NCBI RefSeq assembly: GCF_003337245.1
Contig: NZ_QPJE01000021.1
Coordinates: 1-37,428, forward strand
Length of the DNA stretch: 37,428 bases
Reading direction: 5' to 3'
From: Halanaerobium sp. MA284_MarDTE_T2
Lineage (GTDB): Bacteria; Bacillota; Halanaerobiia; Halanaerobiales; Halanaerobiaceae
A program made the position numbers and the translations under genes. The notes beneath the pieces were generated by a model, which saw nothing but the letters and a program-made list of their open reading frames with translations, made no database searches and was not told where the DNA came from. Below are positions 10,264 through 33,949 of the stretch, piece by piece (the first letter of the stretch is position 1; each line of letters opens with the position of its first letter).

Positions 10264-10380
10264 TACTTTCACTCCTTCTTACTTCTATATTATACAGATT
10301 TAATTTAATTCCTTCTTAAAATAGCTAAATTTGGCCAAACTTTATCAGATCAGTTTGTATTCTAATCAAAACTATTTATC

Positions 10381-10437
10381 TAAAACAGCCAAGAAAACTC
10401 CATCTAAACCTGTGATTTAGGTGGAGAGGTTCACATT
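10381..10437. repeat. 57 bp stem-loop repeat, copy 1
   Basis: This sequence recurs at 33438-33494 with three differences in 57 bases. It begins with TAAAACAGCCAAGAAAA, contains a stem CTCCATCTAAA / TTTAGGTGGAG (11 bp, one G-T pair) around a loop CCTGTGA, and ends GAGGTTCACATT. This copy lies between the secreted-repeat gene and the YvlD-type gene. The remaining part of the 280 base gap (10264-10545) holds the terminator at 10462 and nothing else I can name. Confidence 0.7.
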
Positions 10438-16402: not shown

Positions 16403-16441
16403 ATAACATCAGAGAGGCCAAATGCAAGTAAAATATTAATA

Positions 16442-16703
16442 GGAGTTTCCCAAAAATTTATTTTCAAGCTGCAAAAAGGGGGCTTTAGTCATCAATGAAA
16501 TTTTTAGATTTATCTAAAACTCAATTCGGGTGTGAAATAGGGCACACTAATCAATGAGTCCTCCTGACTCATGATTAGCTCACTCCATCCTGCAGTTCAA
16601 CCCTATTTCTTCCTTCATTTCGTTAGGATTCATTGACTAAAAATTTCAATATTCCTGTATCTCCCCTTTTTGCAGCAGTATATAAAAAATGGGGAAAGTC
16701 CAG
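16442..16703 (-). mobile_element. Foldback MITE, copy C
   Basis: Same orientation as copy B. Ends GGAGTTTCCC and GGGGAAAGTCC. It is flanked by an exact 11 bp direct repeat, AAATATTAATA (16431-16441 and 16704-16714). It differs from A at only a few bases (for example GGATTCATTG where A is AAGATTCATTG on the same strand). It sits between cysE and the end of purD, where it may contribute to ending purD transcription. Confidence 0.87.
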
Positions 16704-20788: not shown

Positions 20789-21050
20789 CTGGACTTTCCC
20801 CATTTTTTATATACTGCTGCAAAAAGGGGAGATGCAGGAATATTGAAATTTTTAGTCAATGAATCTTAACGAAATGAAGGAAGAAATAGGGTTGAACTGC
20901 AGGATGGAGTGAGCTAATCATGAGTCAGGAGGACTCATTGATTAGTGTGCCCTATTTCACACCCGAATTGAGTTTTAGATAAATCTAAAAATTTCATTGA
21001 TGACTAAAGCCCCCTTTTTGCAGCTTGAAAATAAATTTTTGGGAAACTCC
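20789..21050 (+). mobile_element. Foldback MITE, copy D
   Basis: Same orientation as copy A, with ends GGACTTTCCCC and GGGAAACTCC. It is flanked by GTTTTCTT (20781-20788 and 21053-21060; 9 of 10 match if two more bases are counted). It sits exactly between the divergent purB and dnaD promoters: the dnaD -35 box starts 13 bases after its right end. It could insulate the two promoters or change their activity. Confidence 0.85.
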
Positions 21051-21063
21051 TAGTTTTCTTTTA

Positions 21064-25809: not shown

Positions 25810-26994
25810 CTAAAACATCAAATAGGGCTCTTCTACAAATTCAGCAAATTTCTGCATAAACTCTGCACCTGCTGCTCCATCAACAGCTCTGTGGTCAACA
25901 CCCAGGGTGAAGTTAATAATTTTTTTCTCCCTCACCAGGCCTTCTTCATTAAGATATAATTTGTTTTTGATAGTTCCTACAGCAAGAATTGCTGCCTGAG
26001 GTGGATTAATAATTGCGGTAAATTCGTCTATACCAAACATACCTAGATTTGTTATTGTAAATGTTCCACCTTCCAGTTCATCAAGATTCAGCCTGTTTTC
26101 TCTGGTTCTTGTAATCAGATCTTTACTTTTTTCGGCCAGCTGTTTTAGACTTAACTCTTCGGCATTTTTTACAACAGGTACCAGCAGACCCTCATCTACT
26201 GCTACTGCAAGTCCCAGGTTAACTTTATTAGAAACAGTTCCTCTTCCTTCTTCATCTACCACCATATTTAATTTTTTTGTTTCTTCTAATGCTTTAACTG
26301 CCACATAAGAAATCAAATCATTAAATGAAATATCCTTTCCTTTTTCTTTGAGATTTTTCTTTAGAACGAGAAGCTCATCAACTTCTATTTCTCGCCTCAG
26401 ATAGATGTGGGGAGCACGCCAGCTTTCTGTGAGCCTTCTTGCTATCACATTTCTCATTCCACTTTCTTTTGGAACTTCTTTGTCTTTTTTAGCAGTTTTA
26501 TCTTCTGCTTTACCTACATCTGACAGATATTTTTCGATATCTGCAACACTCAGACGGTCTCTGCCAAGAGCTTCTGCAGCATCTTCAAGTTTAATATTAT
26601 TATCTGCTGCTATTTTTCGTGCCTTTGGTGCTGCCATTACTCTTCTGCCTTTTCTTTCTTTTCTGTCTGATTTATCTTTTTTTTCAGATTTTTCGGCTTT
26701 AGATTCTGTTTCTACTTCAACTTTTTTTTCTGCTTTTTTAGATGATTCATCTTCTTCCCAGCCGACAAGTTTTGCAACCGGTGTTTTTACCTTTACTGTT
26801 TCACCTTCTTCAACCAGAATCTCTTCTATTTCTCCATCTTCATTTGCTTCAACATCATTTGTAAGTTTTTCTGTTTCTACTGAGAATATAAAATCTCCTT
26901 TTTTGAATTTATCTCCTTCAGAAAGGTACCATTTTACAATAGTTCCTTCTTCCATTGTTAAACCAAGTTTGGGCATTACTAGTTCTTTAGCCAT
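25810..26994 (-). CDS. acoC: Dihydrolipoamide acetyltransferase (E2) of the acetoin dehydrogenase complex
   Basis: This 394-residue E2 has a lipoyl domain at 1-78 with the lipoylated Lys in FSVETEKLTNDVEA, a charged Lys/Glu linker (about 85-118), a peripheral-subunit-binding domain (about 119-155: MAAPKARKIAADNNIKLED), and the catalytic domain from about 172 (SGMRNVIARRLTESW) ending in TLGVDHRAVDGAAGAEFM, whose HxxxDG is the catalytic site. It transfers the acetyl group released by E1 to CoA. The ATG at 26994 (GGAGG upstream) is preferred over the preceding TTG. It overlaps the methyltransferase gene by 8 bases. The E3 subunit must be supplied from elsewhere. Confidence 0.93.
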   Translation of the reverse strand: MAKELVMPKLGLTMEEGTIVKWYLSEGDKFKKGDFIFSVETEKLTNDVEANEDGEIEEILVEEGETVKVKTPVAKLVGWEEDESSKKAEKKVEVETESKAEKSEKKDKSDRKERKGRRVMAAPKARKIAADNNIKLEDAAEALGRDRLSVADIEKYLSDVGKAEDKTAKKDKEVPKESGMRNVIARRLTESWRAPHIYLRREIEVDELLVLKKNLKEKGKDISFNDLISYVAVKALEETKKLNMVVDEEGRGTVSNKVNLGLAVAVDEGLLVPVVKNAEELSLKQLAEKSKDLITRTRENRLNLDELEGGTFTITNLGMFGIDEFTAIINPPQAAILAVGTIKNKLYLNEEGLVREKKIINFTLGVDHRAVDGAAGAEFMQKFAEFVEEPYLMF

Positions 26995-27700
26995 CAAAAT
27001 CCTCCTTTTTCTCTACACTTCCAACAAGAAGAGCCCCTCTTTTTGGAAATCTTGTCTTAAATTCATCTTCCAGAGGTTTAAACCAGCGAAAATCTTCTGC
27101 TTTTTTAAAATATGGTGGTACAAAAAGGGTGGATTCCATTTCTACATCACCATATTTGGACAGAAGTGATTCCAGCTCTTCCCAGGTATAGAATTTACCT
27201 TCACTAAAAATAGATTCCTTTTCCAAACTTTCTGCTTTCCTTTTATAGGCCCAGGTGCTTTCTTTGTTTAAAACTCCAATAACAAGTTTTCCACTCTTCT
27301 TTAAAATTCTCCACATTTCTTTGCTTACTTCTTCTATCTTATCTTCATCTATAAATTCTATCATAGAATTTGAATAGACTATATCAAAATAATTATCAGG
27401 AAATGGCAGCTTTTTAGTGACATCTCCTTTTATAAATTCAATTTCTATTCCCTCAGCTTCAGCCAGCTCTTTTCCTGATTTAAGCATTTTTTCAGTTATA
27501 TCAAATCCTACCACCTCTTCTGCTCTAACAGCAAATCGGCGCAGAAAATATCCTGTACCACAGCCAAGCTCTATTATTTTTTTGCCTTCACATTCTCCAA
27601 TATGTCTTTTAAGACATTTATATTCATTTTCACCAACATATTTTCCTCTGTCAGTTCTGTACCAGTCTTCATAACCTTCTGCCAGTTCATCAAGTTCCAT
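26987..27700 (-). CDS. Class I SAM methyltransferase within the aco operon
   Basis: This 237-residue methyltransferase has motif I at IIELGCGTGYFLRRF (about 42-56), the acidic post-I residue in VVGFDITEKML, motif II in FDIVYSNSMIEFID and motif III in ILKKSGKLVIGVLN. It resembles UbiE/BioC-type enzymes; the substrate is unknown. It lies two bases after acoX and overlaps acoC, so it is an integral part of the operon. Standard acetoin operons (acoABCL, with or without acoX) contain no methyltransferase, so it may act on the operon's substrate or a cofactor. GGAGGTG precedes the ATG. Confidence 0.9.
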   Translation of the reverse strand: MELDELAEGYEDWYRTDRGKYVGENEYKCLKRHIGECEGKKIIELGCGTGYFLRRFAVRAEEVVGFDITEKMLKSGKELAEAEGIEIEFIKGDVTKKLPFPDNYFDIVYSNSMIEFIDEDKIEEVSKEMWRILKKSGKLVIGVLNKESTWAYKRKAESLEKESIFSEGKFYTWEELESLLSKYGDVEMESTLFVPPYFKKAEDFRWFKPLEDEFKTRFPKRGALLVGSVEKKEDFDG

Positions 27701-27702
27701 AC

Positions 27703-28722
27703 CTACACCTCCAGCATTTTCTTTTCATCTGCCAGAGCAAGTACATCTTTATATTCTACAAATCTGACCGGTGCATAGCTGAGCTTAACTTCCAGCTGCT
27801 CTGTTTTCTTAACCGAAAGTTCTCGCTCCCCATCAAGGGCAATTATTCTCTGTTTTGAAGGCAGTTTTATTGTTTCCTCCTGCTCAATTTTGCGCCACCT
27901 TTTAATAGGTATCTCTTTAACCACACCAGGAGCAATTGCTGCTTTAACTGTTAGGCTGTTATTACCAATTTCAATAAAAACCCCACCTTCTTCATCTGCC
28001 CGCACCTGTGTCAGCCTGCCGGCAATTGAAACCATACCAATATCATGTGAGGTACTTCTGGTAACAAATAGTTCTTCCAGCTGTTCTGTATGCCAGAGCG
28101 CACGGCTGCCTATATAGGATTCATTTACTATTACAGCATCTATAAGGGCCATGTCTTCTACATTACCATCTCTGATAATATAAATACTCTTGATTGGACT
28201 GGTAACTTTTTGTCTTTCTTCTTCAGTAAAAAAGGTATAGAGACCTGCTGCCATTCCCAGCATTGTGCTTTCGGCCATGATTGGGAAAACATTATTGGTT
28301 CCGGTCGAAATTGACATAACAGGTGTTTTTTTCAGTGCTTTAACAACAACTCTATTTGTACCATCACCACCAAGAACGATAATTATATCAGTATCTTTTT
28401 CTTCCATCAGTTCGGCTGCATTAGAAGAATCTTCAGCTGAACCTCTGATGGACATATCCATAATCTCTACATCAAGTTTAAAGTTTTCTTTTTCCTCTCC
28501 CCAGAGCCCATTTAAAGCTTCATGCCCTATACCAAAAGAATCCGGCATTATATATACTTTATCAATATCCAGTTTGTTTAAGGCCAGCAGAATTCTTCTT
28601 ACTATATTGACTTTTTCTGCATTATCAAATACTGAGCCATGTGCTACCAACCTCCGGATATCTCTTCCGGAGGCCGGGTTAGCAATAATTCCAACAGTTC
28701 TTTTTTTTCTTTCAGACTGCAT
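27703..28722 (-). CDS. acoX: AcoX, NAD kinase-like protein
   Basis: This 339-residue protein belongs to the ATP-NAD kinase-like AcoX family found in acetoin operons. The N-terminus has VGIIANPASGRDIRRLVAHG, and the nucleotide-binding GGDGTN motif lies in IIVLGGDGTNRVVVKAL (about 117-133), followed by SISTGTNNVFP. The biochemical role of AcoX is unsettled. It overlaps the end of acoB by one base (TAATG-type join) and the methyltransferase gene follows after two bases, indicating a single polycistronic message. Confidence 0.93.
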   Translation of the reverse strand: MQSERKKRTVGIIANPASGRDIRRLVAHGSVFDNAEKVNIVRRILLALNKLDIDKVYIMPDSFGIGHEALNGLWGEEKENFKLDVEIMDMSIRGSAEDSSNAAELMEEKDTDIIIVLGGDGTNRVVVKALKKTPVMSISTGTNNVFPIMAESTMLGMAAGLYTFFTEEERQKVTSPIKSIYIIRDGNVEDMALIDAVIVNESYIGSRALWHTEQLEELFVTRSTSHDIGMVSIAGRLTQVRADEEGGVFIEIGNNSLTVKAAIAPGVVKEIPIKRWRKIEQEETIKLPSKQRIIALDGERELSVKKTEQLEVKLSYAPVRFVEYKDVLALADEKKMLEV

Positions 28723-29696
28723 TAAACCATCTCTTTAACTGCAGATATTATTTTTTCTGGCCCTGGTATATATACTTTTTCTAAAGCACTGCTGAATGGT
28801 ACAGGTGCATCAGGAGCACAGATTCTTTTTATGGGTTGTTCGAGAAGAAATAGTCCTTCTTTTGCAACTACTGCAGATACCTCGGAAGTAAAGGAGCCTC
28901 TTTTTGTTTCTTCAGAAGCAATTATCAATTTACCGGTTTTCTCTACTGAATCCAATACAGTTTCTTTATCAAATGGAACCAGTGTTCTTGGATCTATAAC
29001 TTCAATTTCTATTCCTTCTTCTGCCAGCTTTTCAGCAGCTTCCAGAGCATAGGTAACAAGTATGCCTGTGGCAACTACAGTAAGATCTTTACCTTCTCTT
29101 TTAACATCTGCTTTGCCGAGTGGAATAGTAAAATCTTTGTCATCCGGAACTTCACCTTTGTGATTATAAAGTATTTTGTGTTCAAAAAAGATAACAGGAT
29201 TGTCATCTCTGACAGCAGATTTGAGAAGTCCTTTTGCATCAGCAGGTGTGGATGGATATACAACTTTTAGACCGGGAACATGGACAAACCAGGCTTCAGT
29301 TCTCTCAGAGTGCTGTGCTGCTGCACCAATACCTGCCCCATTGGGAGCCCTTAAAACCATTGGTACTTTTGCCTGTCCACCTGTCATATAACACATTTTG
29401 GCTGCCTGATTGAAAATTTCATCCATCGGTACACCCAAAAATCCAGCAAACATGATCTCTGCTATTGGTCTGCTTCCTGTCATAGCAGCACCGACTGCAC
29501 TACCTACAATTGCTGTTTCAGTAATAGGTGTATCCCGTACTCTATCTTCACCAAATCTTTCTACTAGATCTCCTGTAACTCCAAAACATCCGCCAAAAAC
29601 TCCAACATCTTCTCCCATTATAAATACTGATTTATCTCTTTCCATTTCTTCTGCCATTGCTTCTCGAAGTGCTTCTGCATAAGTTAATTTACTCAT
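28722..29696 (-). CDS. acoB: Acetoin dehydrogenase E1 beta subunit
   Basis: This 324-residue protein is the beta subunit of a thiamine-diphosphate E1. Marks: LTYAEALREAMAEEMERDKS at the N-terminus, FIMGEDVGVFGGCFGVTGDL (with the Glu that activates ThDP), RDTPITETAIVGSAVGAAMT and IAEIMFAGFLGVPMDEI in the N-domain, and the C-terminal transketolase-type domain with EVIDPRTLVPFDKETVLDSV. Its start overlaps the stop of acoA by one base. The alpha/beta E1 could also serve branched-chain or pyruvate substrates, but acoX and acoR favour acetoin. Confidence 0.92.
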   Translation of the reverse strand: MSKLTYAEALREAMAEEMERDKSVFIMGEDVGVFGGCFGVTGDLVERFGEDRVRDTPITETAIVGSAVGAAMTGSRPIAEIMFAGFLGVPMDEIFNQAAKMCYMTGGQAKVPMVLRAPNGAGIGAAAQHSERTEAWFVHVPGLKVVYPSTPADAKGLLKSAVRDDNPVIFFEHKILYNHKGEVPDDKDFTIPLGKADVKREGKDLTVVATGILVTYALEAAEKLAEEGIEIEVIDPRTLVPFDKETVLDSVEKTGKLIIASEETKRGSFTSEVSAVVAKEGLFLLEQPIKRICAPDAPVPFSSALEKVYIPGPEKIISAVKEMV

Positions 29697-30682
29697 TAAA
29701 CTCCCTCCCCATAATAAACATCTGTTGTGACTTCTGAAGGATCAGGATCAGGACTGTTCTGTGAAAAATCAACTGCTTCTTTAATCCTGGCTTCTACTTT
29801 TTCCTTCAGCTCATCATATTCTGCATCGTCGAGGAGTTCCTGATCTTTTAATAAATTTTTAAATCTGCTAATAGGATCTTTCTTTTTCCACTCTTCTAAT
29901 TCTTCATCTGAACGATATACTGTAGGATCTCCTTCAAAGTGGCCGCGGTGGCGGTATGTCTTACATTCTACCAGACTGGGCCCTCCACCATTTCTAGCCT
30001 TTTTAACAGCTTCAGTTACAGCTTCATTTACTGCCATGACATCATTTCCATCTACTGTAACACCAGAAATACCATAGGCTACTGCACGATCTGATACATC
30101 CTTTATATTCTGACCTTTCCGGCCATCTGATCTGTACTGAGGCATAGAAATAGCATACATATTGTTTTCACAGACAAAAACTACCGGCAGATTCCATATA
30201 GAGGCCAAATTTATTGCTTCATGGAATGTACCCCTATTGGAGGCACCATCTCCAAAAAAGCATAAAGTTACTGCACCTGTATCAAGAATCTGACTTGTTA
30301 TACCAGAACCTGCTGCAATAGGCAGGCCAGCACCAACAATACCATTTGCGCCTAAAATACCCAGGCTGACATCAGCAATGTGCATTGAGCCACCCTTACC
30401 TTTGTTATATCCTGTGGCTTTGCCAAAAATTTCAGCCATCATCTTGTTTACATCCCCGCCTCTGGCAAGCAGATGACCATGACCTCTGTGCGTACTTGTA
30501 ATATAATCTTTTTCTTCCAGAGCATTACATGCACCAACTGCTACTGCTTCTTCACCTAAATAAAGGTGAACAAAGCCTGGTATTTCACCTTCTGCAAAAT
30601 GTTTCTGCACTGTTGATTCAAATTCTCTGATTACCATCATATCTTCCAGCATTTGAATCATTTTATCTTTGCTTTCTTTCAA
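29696..30682 (-). CDS. acoA: Acetoin dehydrogenase E1 alpha subunit
   Basis: This 328-residue thiamine-diphosphate subunit cleaves acetoin to acetaldehyde and an acetyl group passed to E2. Marks: MLEDMMVIREFESTVQKHF, the ITSTHRGHGHLLARGG region with catalytic His residues, the ThDP/Mg motif FFGDGASNRGTFHEAINLA ending in CENNMYAISMP, and YRHRGHFEGDP. Start is TTG at 30682, six bases after GGGGGAGA. It is the first gene of acoA-acoB-acoX-methyltransferase-acoC and lies behind a sigma-54 promoter at 30780-30795. Confidence 0.92.
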   Translation of the reverse strand: MKESKDKMIQMLEDMMVIREFESTVQKHFAEGEIPGFVHLYLGEEAVAVGACNALEEKDYITSTHRGHGHLLARGGDVNKMMAEIFGKATGYNKGKGGSMHIADVSLGILGANGIVGAGLPIAAGSGITSQILDTGAVTLCFFGDGASNRGTFHEAINLASIWNLPVVFVCENNMYAISMPQYRSDGRKGQNIKDVSDRAVAYGISGVTVDGNDVMAVNEAVTEAVKKARNGGGPSLVECKTYRHRGHFEGDPTVYRSDEELEEWKKKDPISRFKNLLKDQELLDDAEYDELKEKVEARIKEAVDFSQNSPDPDPSEVTTDVYYGEGV

Positions 30683-30779
30683 ACTTATCTCCCCCTATTA
30701 TTAATATTTCTGTCCAGCAGAAAAGATTGAGCCACCTCCCTTAAAATCATAATTTTTTTCCTTTTCAAAATATTAATAA

Positions 30780-30795
30780 TGCATTAATCGTTCCA
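30780..30795 (-). promoter_or_regulatory. Sigma-54 promoter of the aco operon
   Basis: On the minus strand, the sequence is TGGAACGATTAATGCA, with GG and GC exactly 10 bases apart, against the consensus TGGCACG-N4-TTGCW: only two positions differ. Transcription should start near 30769, giving a leader of about 85 bases to the acoA TTG. It is the kind of promoter that requires AcoR, whose gene lies directly upstream. Confidence 0.88.
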
Positions 30796-30923
30796 TTAAT
30801 TAATTAGTTATTAATTATTAATTAATTTGCTTTAAATTCCCTTTTATATCAAGGAACTTGTTTTTCATTTAAAAACAATAGTGATTAAATATAATTTATT
30901 AATATTGTGAATATTTTAATTTT

Positions 30924-31041
30924 TGTATCATTTTGAAACATTTATATAATTTGAAATCTTTTCTTTTTACTGGTTTGCTAATAAAAAAAGGGTGTATGTC
31001 TCATAATGAGACAATAAAATAATTTGTTTCATAATGAGACA
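30924..31041 (-). promoter_or_regulatory. Three AcoR-type enhancer palindromes
   Basis: Three 17 bp palindromes share the form TGTNTC-N5-GANACA: TGTATCATTTTGAAACA (30924-30940), TGTCTCATAATGAGACA (30997-31013, perfect) and TGTTTCATAATGAGACA (31025-31041). Their centres lie 73 and 28 bases apart and about 145-245 bases upstream of the sigma-54 promoter, the usual reach of a bound enhancer-binding protein. The last abuts the acoR stop. The stretch 30683-31043 contains no gene. Confidence 0.8.
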
Positions 31042-31043
31042 TA

Positions 31044-33002
31044 TTAAAGGTCAATATTGTATTTTTGAGCTTTGCGGTAAATAGTTGACCGGCTGATTCC
31101 CAGCTTTTCTGCTGCCTGAGTAATGTTTTTTGATTTCTTTAATGAAAGATTTATCAAGATCTCTTCCATCTGATCTATTTTCAGCAGTGGAATTTTTTCG
31201 GGATTTAATGGCACACTGGTCTTTTCTTTTTTTAATTCATCAGGCAGCAGATCAGATCTTATTACACCATCATCAGAAAGAAGTGCTGCCCTTTCTATTA
31301 AATTCTGCAGTTCTCTTACATTACCCGGCCAGCTGTAATTTTGAAGGATTTTTATTACTTCTTCTTCTACTCCATAGATATCCTTATTACTCTGCTGATT
31401 GACAATAGAAATAAAATGTTCAATCAGCAGTGGAATATCTTCAGTTCTTTCTCTAAGTGGGGGCATCTTAAGATTAACAGTATTTAAACGAAAATAAAGA
31501 TCTTTGCGAAAATTTCCTTTTTTAACTTCTTCTTCCAAAACTTTATTTGTTGAGGCAATTATCCTTACATCTACCAGAATCGGTTCAAGTCCTCCAATTC
31601 TGGTGATTTCTTTCTCCTGCAGTACCCGCAGCAGGCTGGCCTGCATATTGAGCGGCATCTCTCCTATTTCATCTAAATGAAGTGTCCCACCAGAGGCAAG
31701 TTCAAATTTACCGGGCCTGCCTTTTTTTCGAGCTCCTGTAAAACTACCACCTTCATAACCAAAAAGTTCACTCTCAAGCAGGCTCTGCGGTATAGCTGCA
31801 CAGTTAATACTCAAAAACACCTGTTCACGGCGGGGGCTGCTGTTGTGAATGGCCTGAGCCATCATTTCTTTTCCTGTACCACTTTCCCCTTCTATGAGCA
31901 CAGCTGCATCACTATCACTGATTATCTTAGCCATCTCCACAACCTCATTTAAACTGCTGCTGTTTCCTATAATATCATCAAATTTAAATCTTGCTTCTGA
32001 TCCAGCTATTCTGTTAACCATTTTTTTAACAGCCTTCATCCGGCGCAGTATTATAATAAAACCATCCGGGATCCCCTTTCCACCAGGCAGCATTCTGGCT
32101 GATGAGTTAAAATATATTTTTTTCCCATCTCCGTGCAGATAAATATCTTCATCATTAAATATTCTGTGTTCAGAAAGCATCTTCTCAACTACTTTTTGTT
32201 CTCCTAAAACATCTTTTATATCTTTATTCAGTGCATTTTCTTTTTTTATATTTAACATTCTTGCAGCCGCCTGATTGATACTTATTATACTGCCCATTTT
32301 ATTAATTGATATTAGGCCTTCTGACATAGAGTTAATAACAGCAGTTGCAAACTCATGTGCCTGCTCTAATTCTCTATTTCTTTCCATCAGGGCCAGCTGA
32401 TGTTCAACTGCCTGAGCAGCTGCAGCCACCATCCCCAGAGTATGTGGATGAGCACATTCACAGGGGCCGGTCATATCCAGAATTCCAATCAGCTCTCCCT
32501 CTGGATTATGTATTGGAGCAGCAGAACAGGTCCACGGATGGTGTTTTTTACAGTAATGTTCTTCACCCACTACCTGAAGAGGTTTATCTACTTTAATACC
32601 TGTTCCAATTGCATTAGTTCCGACTTTTTCTTCTGACCAGTATGAGCCAGGAGTAAATCTCATCTCCATAGCTCTGTTCATAATTTTTTCGTCACCTGTA
32701 ACTTCTACTATCATACCTCTGCTGTCAGTCAGTACTACAACAAAATTTGAGTTTTCTACTATCTCTGCCAGCTCATTCATAAAAGGTCTGGCTATTTCTA
32801 TTAAATCTCGGTTGGCTTTCCTTATCCGCATGAGGAGTTTTTTTTCGATTATATTACCTTCTCCACCATATGGATCAACTTTTAAGTTTTTACACCTATG
32901 CCAGGATTCTGTTATTATATTTTTATCAAAATCATCTGATATCTCACCTTTTTCTACAAACGATTTCCACTCTTGATAAGCTTTTTTATTAAAAATATGC
33001 AT
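31044..33002 (-). CDS. acoR: Sigma-54-dependent transcriptional activator AcoR
   Basis: This 652-residue enhancer-binding protein has an N-terminal GAF-type sensor (about 65-205, with EKVGTNAIGTGI and the CKKHHPWTCSAAPIHNPEG stretch), a PAS domain (about 215-320), the sigma-54 AAA+ domain with Walker A IEGESGTGKEMMAQAIHN, a GSFTGA loop (the usual GAFTGA with Ser for Ala), Walker B TLHLDEIGEM, and a C-terminal Fis-type helix-turn-helix (ITQAAEKLGISRSTIYRKAQ). In known systems the sensor detects acetoin or a related compound. It lies upstream of the aco operon in the same direction. GAGGTGAG precedes the ATG. Confidence 0.93.
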   Translation of the reverse strand: MHIFNKKAYQEWKSFVEKGEISDDFDKNIITESWHRCKNLKVDPYGGEGNIIEKKLLMRIRKANRDLIEIARPFMNELAEIVENSNFVVVLTDSRGMIVEVTGDEKIMNRAMEMRFTPGSYWSEEKVGTNAIGTGIKVDKPLQVVGEEHYCKKHHPWTCSAAPIHNPEGELIGILDMTGPCECAHPHTLGMVAAAAQAVEHQLALMERNRELEQAHEFATAVINSMSEGLISINKMGSIISINQAAARMLNIKKENALNKDIKDVLGEQKVVEKMLSEHRIFNDEDIYLHGDGKKIYFNSSARMLPGGKGIPDGFIIILRRMKAVKKMVNRIAGSEARFKFDDIIGNSSSLNEVVEMAKIISDSDAAVLIEGESGTGKEMMAQAIHNSSPRREQVFLSINCAAIPQSLLESELFGYEGGSFTGARKKGRPGKFELASGGTLHLDEIGEMPLNMQASLLRVLQEKEITRIGGLEPILVDVRIIASTNKVLEEEVKKGNFRKDLYFRLNTVNLKMPPLRERTEDIPLLIEHFISIVNQQSNKDIYGVEEEVIKILQNYSWPGNVRELQNLIERAALLSDDGVIRSDLLPDELKKEKTSVPLNPEKIPLLKIDQMEEILINLSLKKSKNITQAAEKLGISRSTIYRKAQKYNIDL

Positions 33003-33353
33003 TTTCTACTCACCTCATCTATTCTCATTTTTTAATACATCATTTTTCAAAACATGATAGTACAAATCTTTTGCTGCTAATATACTCTACTTCCCTATAT
33101 ATACTATTAAATCTCAAACTATCTTTTCCTGCTGTAGAAATCTCAAAAATCAGCATAAGGCTGTCTTTAATTCCTGTTCATTTTTTATCAGGTCCAAACC
33201 AATATTTCCAGACTTATTTTCGAATTCAGCTCTGCTGCAGGATCATCTGCCAGCACCAGTAAGGTAAGTTTTTGATGGTAATATCTCTGATTTGCCGAAA
33301 AGTCTGCAGAAAAAATTAAAGAACATGGATTAGCACAGATTATTGAATTTAAA
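33003..33353. other. Gene-free stretch upstream of acoR
   Basis: No intact gene is visible. It should hold the acoR promoter, which I cannot place clearly. Between about 33130 and 33350 both strands show short open stretches that look protein-like (for example AEKSAEKIKEHGLAQIIEF, plus strand), so a decayed gene is possible but unproven. Confidence 0.3.
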
Positions 33354-33354
33354 A

Positions 33355-33419
33355 AACTCACCCTGTTAATATTATCTCATAAATTCATAACTTCTCTGAG
33401 ATTATTAACAGAATGAGTT
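33355..33419 (-). terminator. Long hairpin terminator of the rpsF-rplI cluster
   Basis: Arms of 23-25 bases (33355-33379 and 33397-33419) pair imperfectly: AACTCA with TGAGTT, TGTTAATA with TATTAACA-like bases, and TCTCA with TGAGA. On the minus strand the second arm is followed by TTTTTT. It lies about 85 bases past the rplI stop, beyond the 57 bp repeat. Confidence 0.75.
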
Positions 33420-33437
33420 TTCTTTTTATATTTTATT

Positions 33438-33494
33438 TAAAACAGCCAAGAAAACTCCCTCTAAATCTGTAATTTAGGTGGAGAGGTTCACATT
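33438..33494. repeat. 57 bp stem-loop repeat, copy 2
   Basis: Same as the copy at 10381-10437 with three changes; here one stem position is mismatched (CTCCCTCTAAA against TTTAGGTGGAG). It begins 11 bases past the rplI stop on the minus strand, so it would be part of the 3' end of that mRNA. Confidence 0.7.
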
Positions 33495-33505
33495 TTTTAA
33501 CTGTC

Positions 33506-33949
33506 TTATTTTTCCTGAACAGATATTTTAAGTTCTGCAGATATATCATCATATATTTTTACATCAATTTTGTGCATACCCAGAGTTTTTATATGATCAT
33601 CAAGATCTATTTTTCTTTTGTCGATATCATATCCTTTTTCTGCAGCTGCTTCTGCAATATCTTTTGTTGTAACTGAGCCAAATAATCTTCCACTTTCCCC
33701 AGCCTTAACTTTAACAACAAACTTTTCTGATTCCAGTTTTTCTTTTAACTGTTCTGCTTTCTTTCTTCTCTGTTCTTCTTTTTTCTCTTTTTTGCGTTCT
33801 TTCTGCTTTAGCTGTTTTATTTTCCCTTCAGTTGCTTCTACTGCCAGTCCGCGGGGAAAAAGATAATTACGTGCATACCCATCGGCTGCATCAACAACAT
33901 CACCTTTACTGCCGAGTTTTTTTACGTCTTTTTTTAGTATTACTTTCAT
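33506..33949 (-). CDS. rplI: 50S ribosomal protein bL9
   Basis: This 147-residue protein has the two-domain L9 form: an N-terminal rRNA-binding domain MKVILKKDVKKLGSKGDVVD ... GYARNYLFPRGLA, a long charged helix (about 45-80, very rich in Lys and Glu), and a C-terminal domain with GRLFGSVTTKDIAEA. Length is typical. It is last in a row with yybS, rpsR, ssb and rpsF. In Bacillus, gdpP (yybT) lies between yybS and rplI; here it is absent. Confidence 0.96.
   Translation of the reverse strand: MKVILKKDVKKLGSKGDVVDAADGYARNYLFPRGLAVEATEGKIKQLKQKERKKEKKEEQRRKKAEQLKEKLESEKFVVKVKAGESGRLFGSVTTKDIAEAAAEKGYDIDKRKIDLDDHIKTLGMHKIDVKIYDDISAELKISVQEK

Follow-up and report, generated by a model that had tools for sequence, protein, structure and literature searches.

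A conserved sigma-54 control region with three predicted enhancer sites upstream of a putative acetoin dehydrogenase operon in Halanaerobiaceae

Introduction

The DNA between acoR and acoA in Halanaerobium sp. MA284_MarDTE_T2 is best read, with a probability of roughly 90%, as the enhancer–promoter control region of an acetoin dehydrogenase operon, which would be activated through three upstream sites by the sigma-54 activator AcoR. This region, which lies in a 37,428-nt stretch of DNA (contig NZ_QPJE01000021.1 of assembly GCF_003337245.1; hereafter, the window), is a good representative of an established type of sigma-54 switch and nothing new in kind. We observe its sequence elements, their improbability in shuffled DNA, their conserved order and spacing in related genomes, and a sigma-54 gene in the same genome.

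Activators of sigma-54 promoters bind their sites as dimers, assemble into an AAA+ ring in response to a signal and, through DNA looping, open the closed complex. For the region studied here, we infer AcoR binding, an inducer, looping and activation, in the following steps. AcoR dimers would most likely bind three TGT-N11-ACA palindromes that precede the start site by ~160-265 bp, and the GAF/PAS domains would sense acetoin or a related signal. The signal-bound AcoR would then form the AAA+ ring and loop the DNA, and this ring would open the sigma-54 RNA polymerase at the -24/-12 promoter.

Promoter and enhancer sites in the window

The spacer between acoR and acoA is 361 bp long (22% GC) in the window, and contains the following elements:

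30795-30780, minus strand: sigma-54 (-24/-12) promoter TGGAACGATTAATGCA, GG-N10-GC with consensus flanks, upstream of the aco operon
31025-31041, no strand assigned: enhancer site 1 (predicted), TGTTTCATAATGAGACA, centre at about -264 from the inferred start site
30997-31013, no strand assigned: enhancer site 2 (predicted), perfect palindrome TGTCTCATAATGAGACA, centre at about -236, 28 bp from site 1
30924-30940, no strand assigned: enhancer site 3 (predicted), TGTATCATTTTGAAACA, centre at about -163, 73 bp from site 2
30905-30910, minus strand: TCACAA box, between site 3 and the promoter, kept in five genomes

A sequence-only reading of this DNA had described a promoter and three palindromes between the two genes, and all four are present at the coordinates listed; the TCACAA box is an addition to that description. 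The predicted transcription start falls near 30769. The three sites are exact matches to TGTNTC-N5-GANACA, and this is improbable by chance: when the 361-bp spacer was shuffled with its dinucleotides preserved, only 3 of 20,000 shuffles contained one such strict palindrome and none contained two, against the three observed. The same reading had called the control region complete, and this is supported, the distance of the three enhancer sites being typical. The window genome encodes sigma-54 (G000; PF04552 match, 5e-55, on contig G000:C16). Additionally, this 2.47-Mb genome is enriched in the sigma-54-type pattern TGGNAYRNNNNWTGCA, with 29 matches on both strands versus 2 for the reversed control. 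By a crude test, most of the 29 lie inside reading frames, so not all of them are promoters, but several directly adjoin enhancer-binding-protein genes, as in the window.

Taking 10.5 bp per helical turn, the 73 bp that separate sites 2 and 3 amount to 6.95 turns and the 138 bp from site 3 to the promoter to 13.1 turns, which puts these elements on one face of the helix. The 28 bp between sites 1 and 2 correspond to about 2.7 turns, which is off-phase and speaks against the main reading (this is arithmetic, with no measured effect attached). Rfam gave no match in the window.

The acoR gene and the aco operon

The genes on both sides of the spacer are the following:

31044-33002, minus strand: acoR, 652-aa sigma-54 activator, recognized from its Pfam domains, GSFTGA loop and C-terminus
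29696-30682, minus strand: acoA, E1 alpha-type subunit, with a TTG start that is kept in the alignment of relatives
28722-29696, minus strand: acoB, E1 beta-type subunit
27703-28722, minus strand: acoX-like gene, NAD-kinase fold
26987-27700, minus strand: SAM-dependent methyltransferase gene, inside the operon and at an equal position in three relatives
25810-26997, minus strand: acoC, lipoyl E2 acyltransferase

AcoR carries sensory and DNA-binding domains, namely a GAF domain (PF01590) and a Fis-type HTH (PF02954), together with a PAS domain (PF00989) and the AAA+ sigma-54 domain (PF00158, 4e-69). The latter has the loop GSFTGA, a variant that is also listed in PMC6615313. Among the NCBIfam equivalogs the best match is DhaR, below its cut-off (442 bits vs 551), and the name AcoR is taken from the operon context, since no NCBIfam equivalog gives that name.

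The gene order acoR-acoA-acoB-acoX-methyltransferase-acoC is found in the window genome and in the relatives G002 and G004 (H. polyolivorans). H. congolense (G001) has the aco genes as in the window, with an acoR that is divergent from acoA and truncated by the contig end, and the contig of a further relative, G012, stops inside acoX. A methyltransferase gene (~66-68% identity) also lies between acoX and acoC in G002, G004 and G001; to our knowledge, such a gene is not a usual component of aco operons.

The operon might instead encode a dehydrogenase for pyruvate or another 2-oxoacid or 2-hydroxyketone, with an AcoR-like activator sensing another compound and the control region working alike. 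The E1 alpha subunit scores 377.9 bits against PDH_E1_alph_y, slightly short of the 393.85-bit cut-off for this pyruvate dehydrogenase family, so that the sequence leaves the substrate unproven; this score and the DhaR match of the regulator both speak for such an enzyme. Nevertheless, we consider it unlikely, given that acoX, which PMC3543383 describes as a typical member of clusters for acetoin dehydrogenase, is present here, and that H. polyolivorans, whose genome carries the same aco operon, grows on acetoin (PMC10536098).

Two kinds of repeats were also noted in this DNA. A 63-bp repeat (94% identical) is found upstream of acoR, at 33432-33494, and at 10375-10437. A 261-bp non-coding element is present in the window at 2490-2750, 20792-21052 and, on the minus strand, 16440-16700, and at least 40 times in the genome (98-100% identity), that is, at least 37 times beyond the window. 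The element forms a long hairpin when folded (z = -6.6 as DNA), its ends nearly match (GGACTTTCCCC and GGGGAAACTCC) and it is flanked by direct duplications of ~8-10 bp, so it resembles a MITE that was amplified recently.

Conserved geometry in the Halanaerobiaceae

The control region was compared in five Halanaerobiaceae genomes (the window genome, G002, G004, G012 and G001). Exactly three TGT-N11-ACA sites occur in the acoR-acoA region of each one, and the spacer length is specific: when lengths from 4 to 21 were scanned, a length of 11 gave 3, 3, 3, 3 and 3 sites, and any other length gave at most one per genome (0-3 in total). The promoter TGGAACGATTAATGCA is kept in the four relatives. 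The distances from the site centres (sites 1, 2 and 3) to the promoter GG are almost the same throughout:

window genome: 239, 211 and 138 bp
G002: 239, 211 and 138 bp
G004: 240, 212 and 139 bp
G012: 237, 209 and 137 bp
G001: 236, 209 and 137 bp

Over the five genomes, these distances thus span 236-240, 209-212 and 137-139 bp, with 27-28 bp between sites 1 and 2 and 72-73 bp between sites 2 and 3. The invariant alignment columns are concentrated in the elements themselves (28 of 51 in the sites and 12 of 17 in the promoter, versus 6 of 56 in the stretch separating sites 2 and 3 and 19 of 109 from the TCACAA box to the promoter). A search of 14 family genomes with the pattern of the whole triad, one mismatch being allowed, returned only aco loci, missing G012 and G001 because of their one-base spacing differences.

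In the window, only 2 nt separate site 1 from the acoR stop codon and the palindrome of site 2 is perfect, which would also suit hairpins at the end of the acoR transcript, acting in termination or processing. We regard this as extremely unlikely, since the acoR strand has no terminator-like stem with a T-run and the spacing follows the other gene: site 1 lies anywhere between 2 and 134 nt from the acoR end, whereas the distances to the promoter are fixed, and in H. congolense, where acoR points away, the triad and the promoter geometry are retained. Based on these distances, the sites are anchored to the acoA promoter and not to the end of acoR.

In each of the five genomes, the TCACAA box follows the start of site 3 by exactly 30 nt. 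A Rex operator (TCACAA/TTGTGA) was considered for it and not adopted, as there are only half-sites and the full palindrome is absent; a second DNA-binding protein at this box is possible. In two genera, the distances among the three sites, the box and the promoter are conserved almost to the base pair. The region might therefore be a rigid assembly and not a loose enhancer, in which several AcoR dimers bind in a defined complex with the help of a DNA-bending second protein at TCACAA, a suggestion that we make tentatively and with some doubt.

Enhancer motif and its targets

The sequence-only reading had taken TGTNTC-N5-GANACA as the AcoR motif. This form proved too narrow, as it has no match in any of the relatives' aco regions that were fetched, although TGT-N11-ACA sites are present at the same place in four relatives; the palindromes are thus conserved in position and not in the exact motif. 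Taken to the letter, the missing strict matches would count against that reading by its own check, which asked for palindromes at this place in related aco operons, but in essence the check is passed. The 15 sites of the five genomes were read on both strands. All of them share TGT, A7, T11 and ACA, pyrimidines nearly always occupy positions 5-6, and the centre is A/T except in one site. C6/G12, specified by the strict form, are retained in just half of the half-sites, while A7 and T11, which it had left free, are always kept. Since A7 and T11 are found in all 15 sites, the better motif is TGTNYYAWWWTRRNACA; the selection of these sites did not impose A7 and T11.

The genome-wide scans are pattern matching. 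In the 2.47-Mb genome, the strict form occurs in four places (the three aco sites and one inside an ORF) and TGTNYYAWWWTRRNACA matches the three aco sites only. Recovery of the window sites is by construction, because the motif was built partly on them; what is informative is the lack of any other match in this genome and the fact that, in G001, G002, G004 and G012, all of its matches are at aco. The earlier expectation that the motif would be specific enough to reveal other AcoR targets is therefore supported as to specificity, but in this genome no further target emerges from the strict form or from the corrected one. With matches at the three aco sites only, AcoR looks like a one-operon activator and, judging from these scans, is probably dedicated to a single target operon in this genome. 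PMC6615313 gives a single target operon for 65% of the Clostridiales enhancer-binding proteins that it analysed.

Other places where AcoR could act were considered. The remaining strict match, at G000:C18:27058, was rejected as a target because it lies inside the ORF. When up to two mismatches were allowed, the count in this genome, after removal of the aco sites, equalled that of the reversed control. No TGT-N11-ACA site was found at the five other sigma-54 promoters of this genome linked to enhancer-binding-protein genes, nor was any site found upstream of acoR itself (33003-33506) that would point to autoregulation. A sigma-54-like match on contig C4 with an upstream TGT-N11-ACA was rejected, being part of a CRISPR array (L110, 1700-2500; G000:C4 ~74.7-75.5 kb; repeat CTAACATTTACCTCTCCGCTTACTAGGAGACTGAAAG), which is the source of this false sigma-54/enhancer match. 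Halanaerobium genomes free of aco have single TGTNYYAWWWTRRNACA matches, and at none of the 7 loci checked was an AcoR-like gene found within 1.5 kb.

Beyond the family, the flanks of AcoR-like regulators (~45% identity, phylum-wide) contain 33 sites with the N11 spacer, versus 4-14 for other spacers, including near-perfect TGTTTCA-NNN-TGAAACA forms. Many of these loci have no aco gene detected within the short flanks examined, and consequently the motif marks a regulator class and is not a signature of AcoR.

Discussion

The closest tested analogue of this region is AdhR of Clostridium beijerinckii with the adhA1 and adhA2 promoters. AdhR has like domains (GAF, PAS, AAA+ and HTH) and three enhancer (UAS) sites upstream of a -24/-12 promoter; the sites were examined by mutation and gel shift, and the loss of any of them severely impairs activity (PMC7017808). 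It belongs to the TGT/ACA motif group of PMC6615313. The likeness to AcoR described here is one of architecture, and AdhR controls alcohol dehydrogenase genes, not acetoin genes.

As described in PMC6615313, the TGT-N10-12-ACA enhancer class includes NifA, FhlA and 15 Clostridiales groups, with several sites per promoter, 100-250 bp upstream, and mostly one operon per activator. The Halanaerobiaceae region resembles it in each of these features and in its 11-bp spacer, all three sites being N11 in each of the five genomes. The Clostridium AcoR motif, in contrast, is described there as distinct from the TGT/ACA class, a description that covers Clostridiales only; compared with that description, the AcoR studied here differs in falling within the TGT/ACA class, and this counts against the main reading.

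The AcoR-acoABCL system of Bacillus (B. subtilis; B. thuringiensis, PMC4428206) likewise has a sigma-54 aco promoter and an AcoR with a GAF domain, and in B. thuringiensis acoR is codirectional with its target, as here (PMC4428206). The operon in the window differs in having acoX and the methyltransferase gene and in having no acoL adjoining acoC. The sites also differ in arrangement: in B. thuringiensis the arms stand back to back in one 30-bp element, GAGACA-GA-TGTCTC (as quoted in PMC12648084), whereas the window has three separate sites with the arms facing, TGTCTC-N5-GAGACA.

The palindromes might bind another regulator (a repressor or a global factor), with AcoR acting elsewhere, as the half-sites also suit other dyad-binding proteins and the TCACAA box indicates that something else may bind in the region. 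Several observations make this very unlikely: the sites are at enhancer distance and not over the promoter, TGTNYYAWWWTRRNACA is found only beside acoR-aco, both in this genome and in those relatives that carry the operon, N11-spacer sites follow AcoR homologues phylum-wide, and the arm AATGAGACA/TGTCTCATT is common to the window sites and the B. thuringiensis AcoR site, as the latter is quoted in PMC12648084.

This work provides a usable corrected motif for probable AcoR binding in the Halanaerobiaceae and assigns a putative regulator of acetoin breakdown to the TGT-N11-ACA enhancer class. Activation by sigma-54 enhancers is usually considered tolerant of distance. The spacing described here has stayed near-constant in two genera (within 4 bp over ~240 bp) amid drift of the DNA around it, and it offers a clean natural system in which to ask how far sigma-54 activation is constrained by the geometry of its enhancers.
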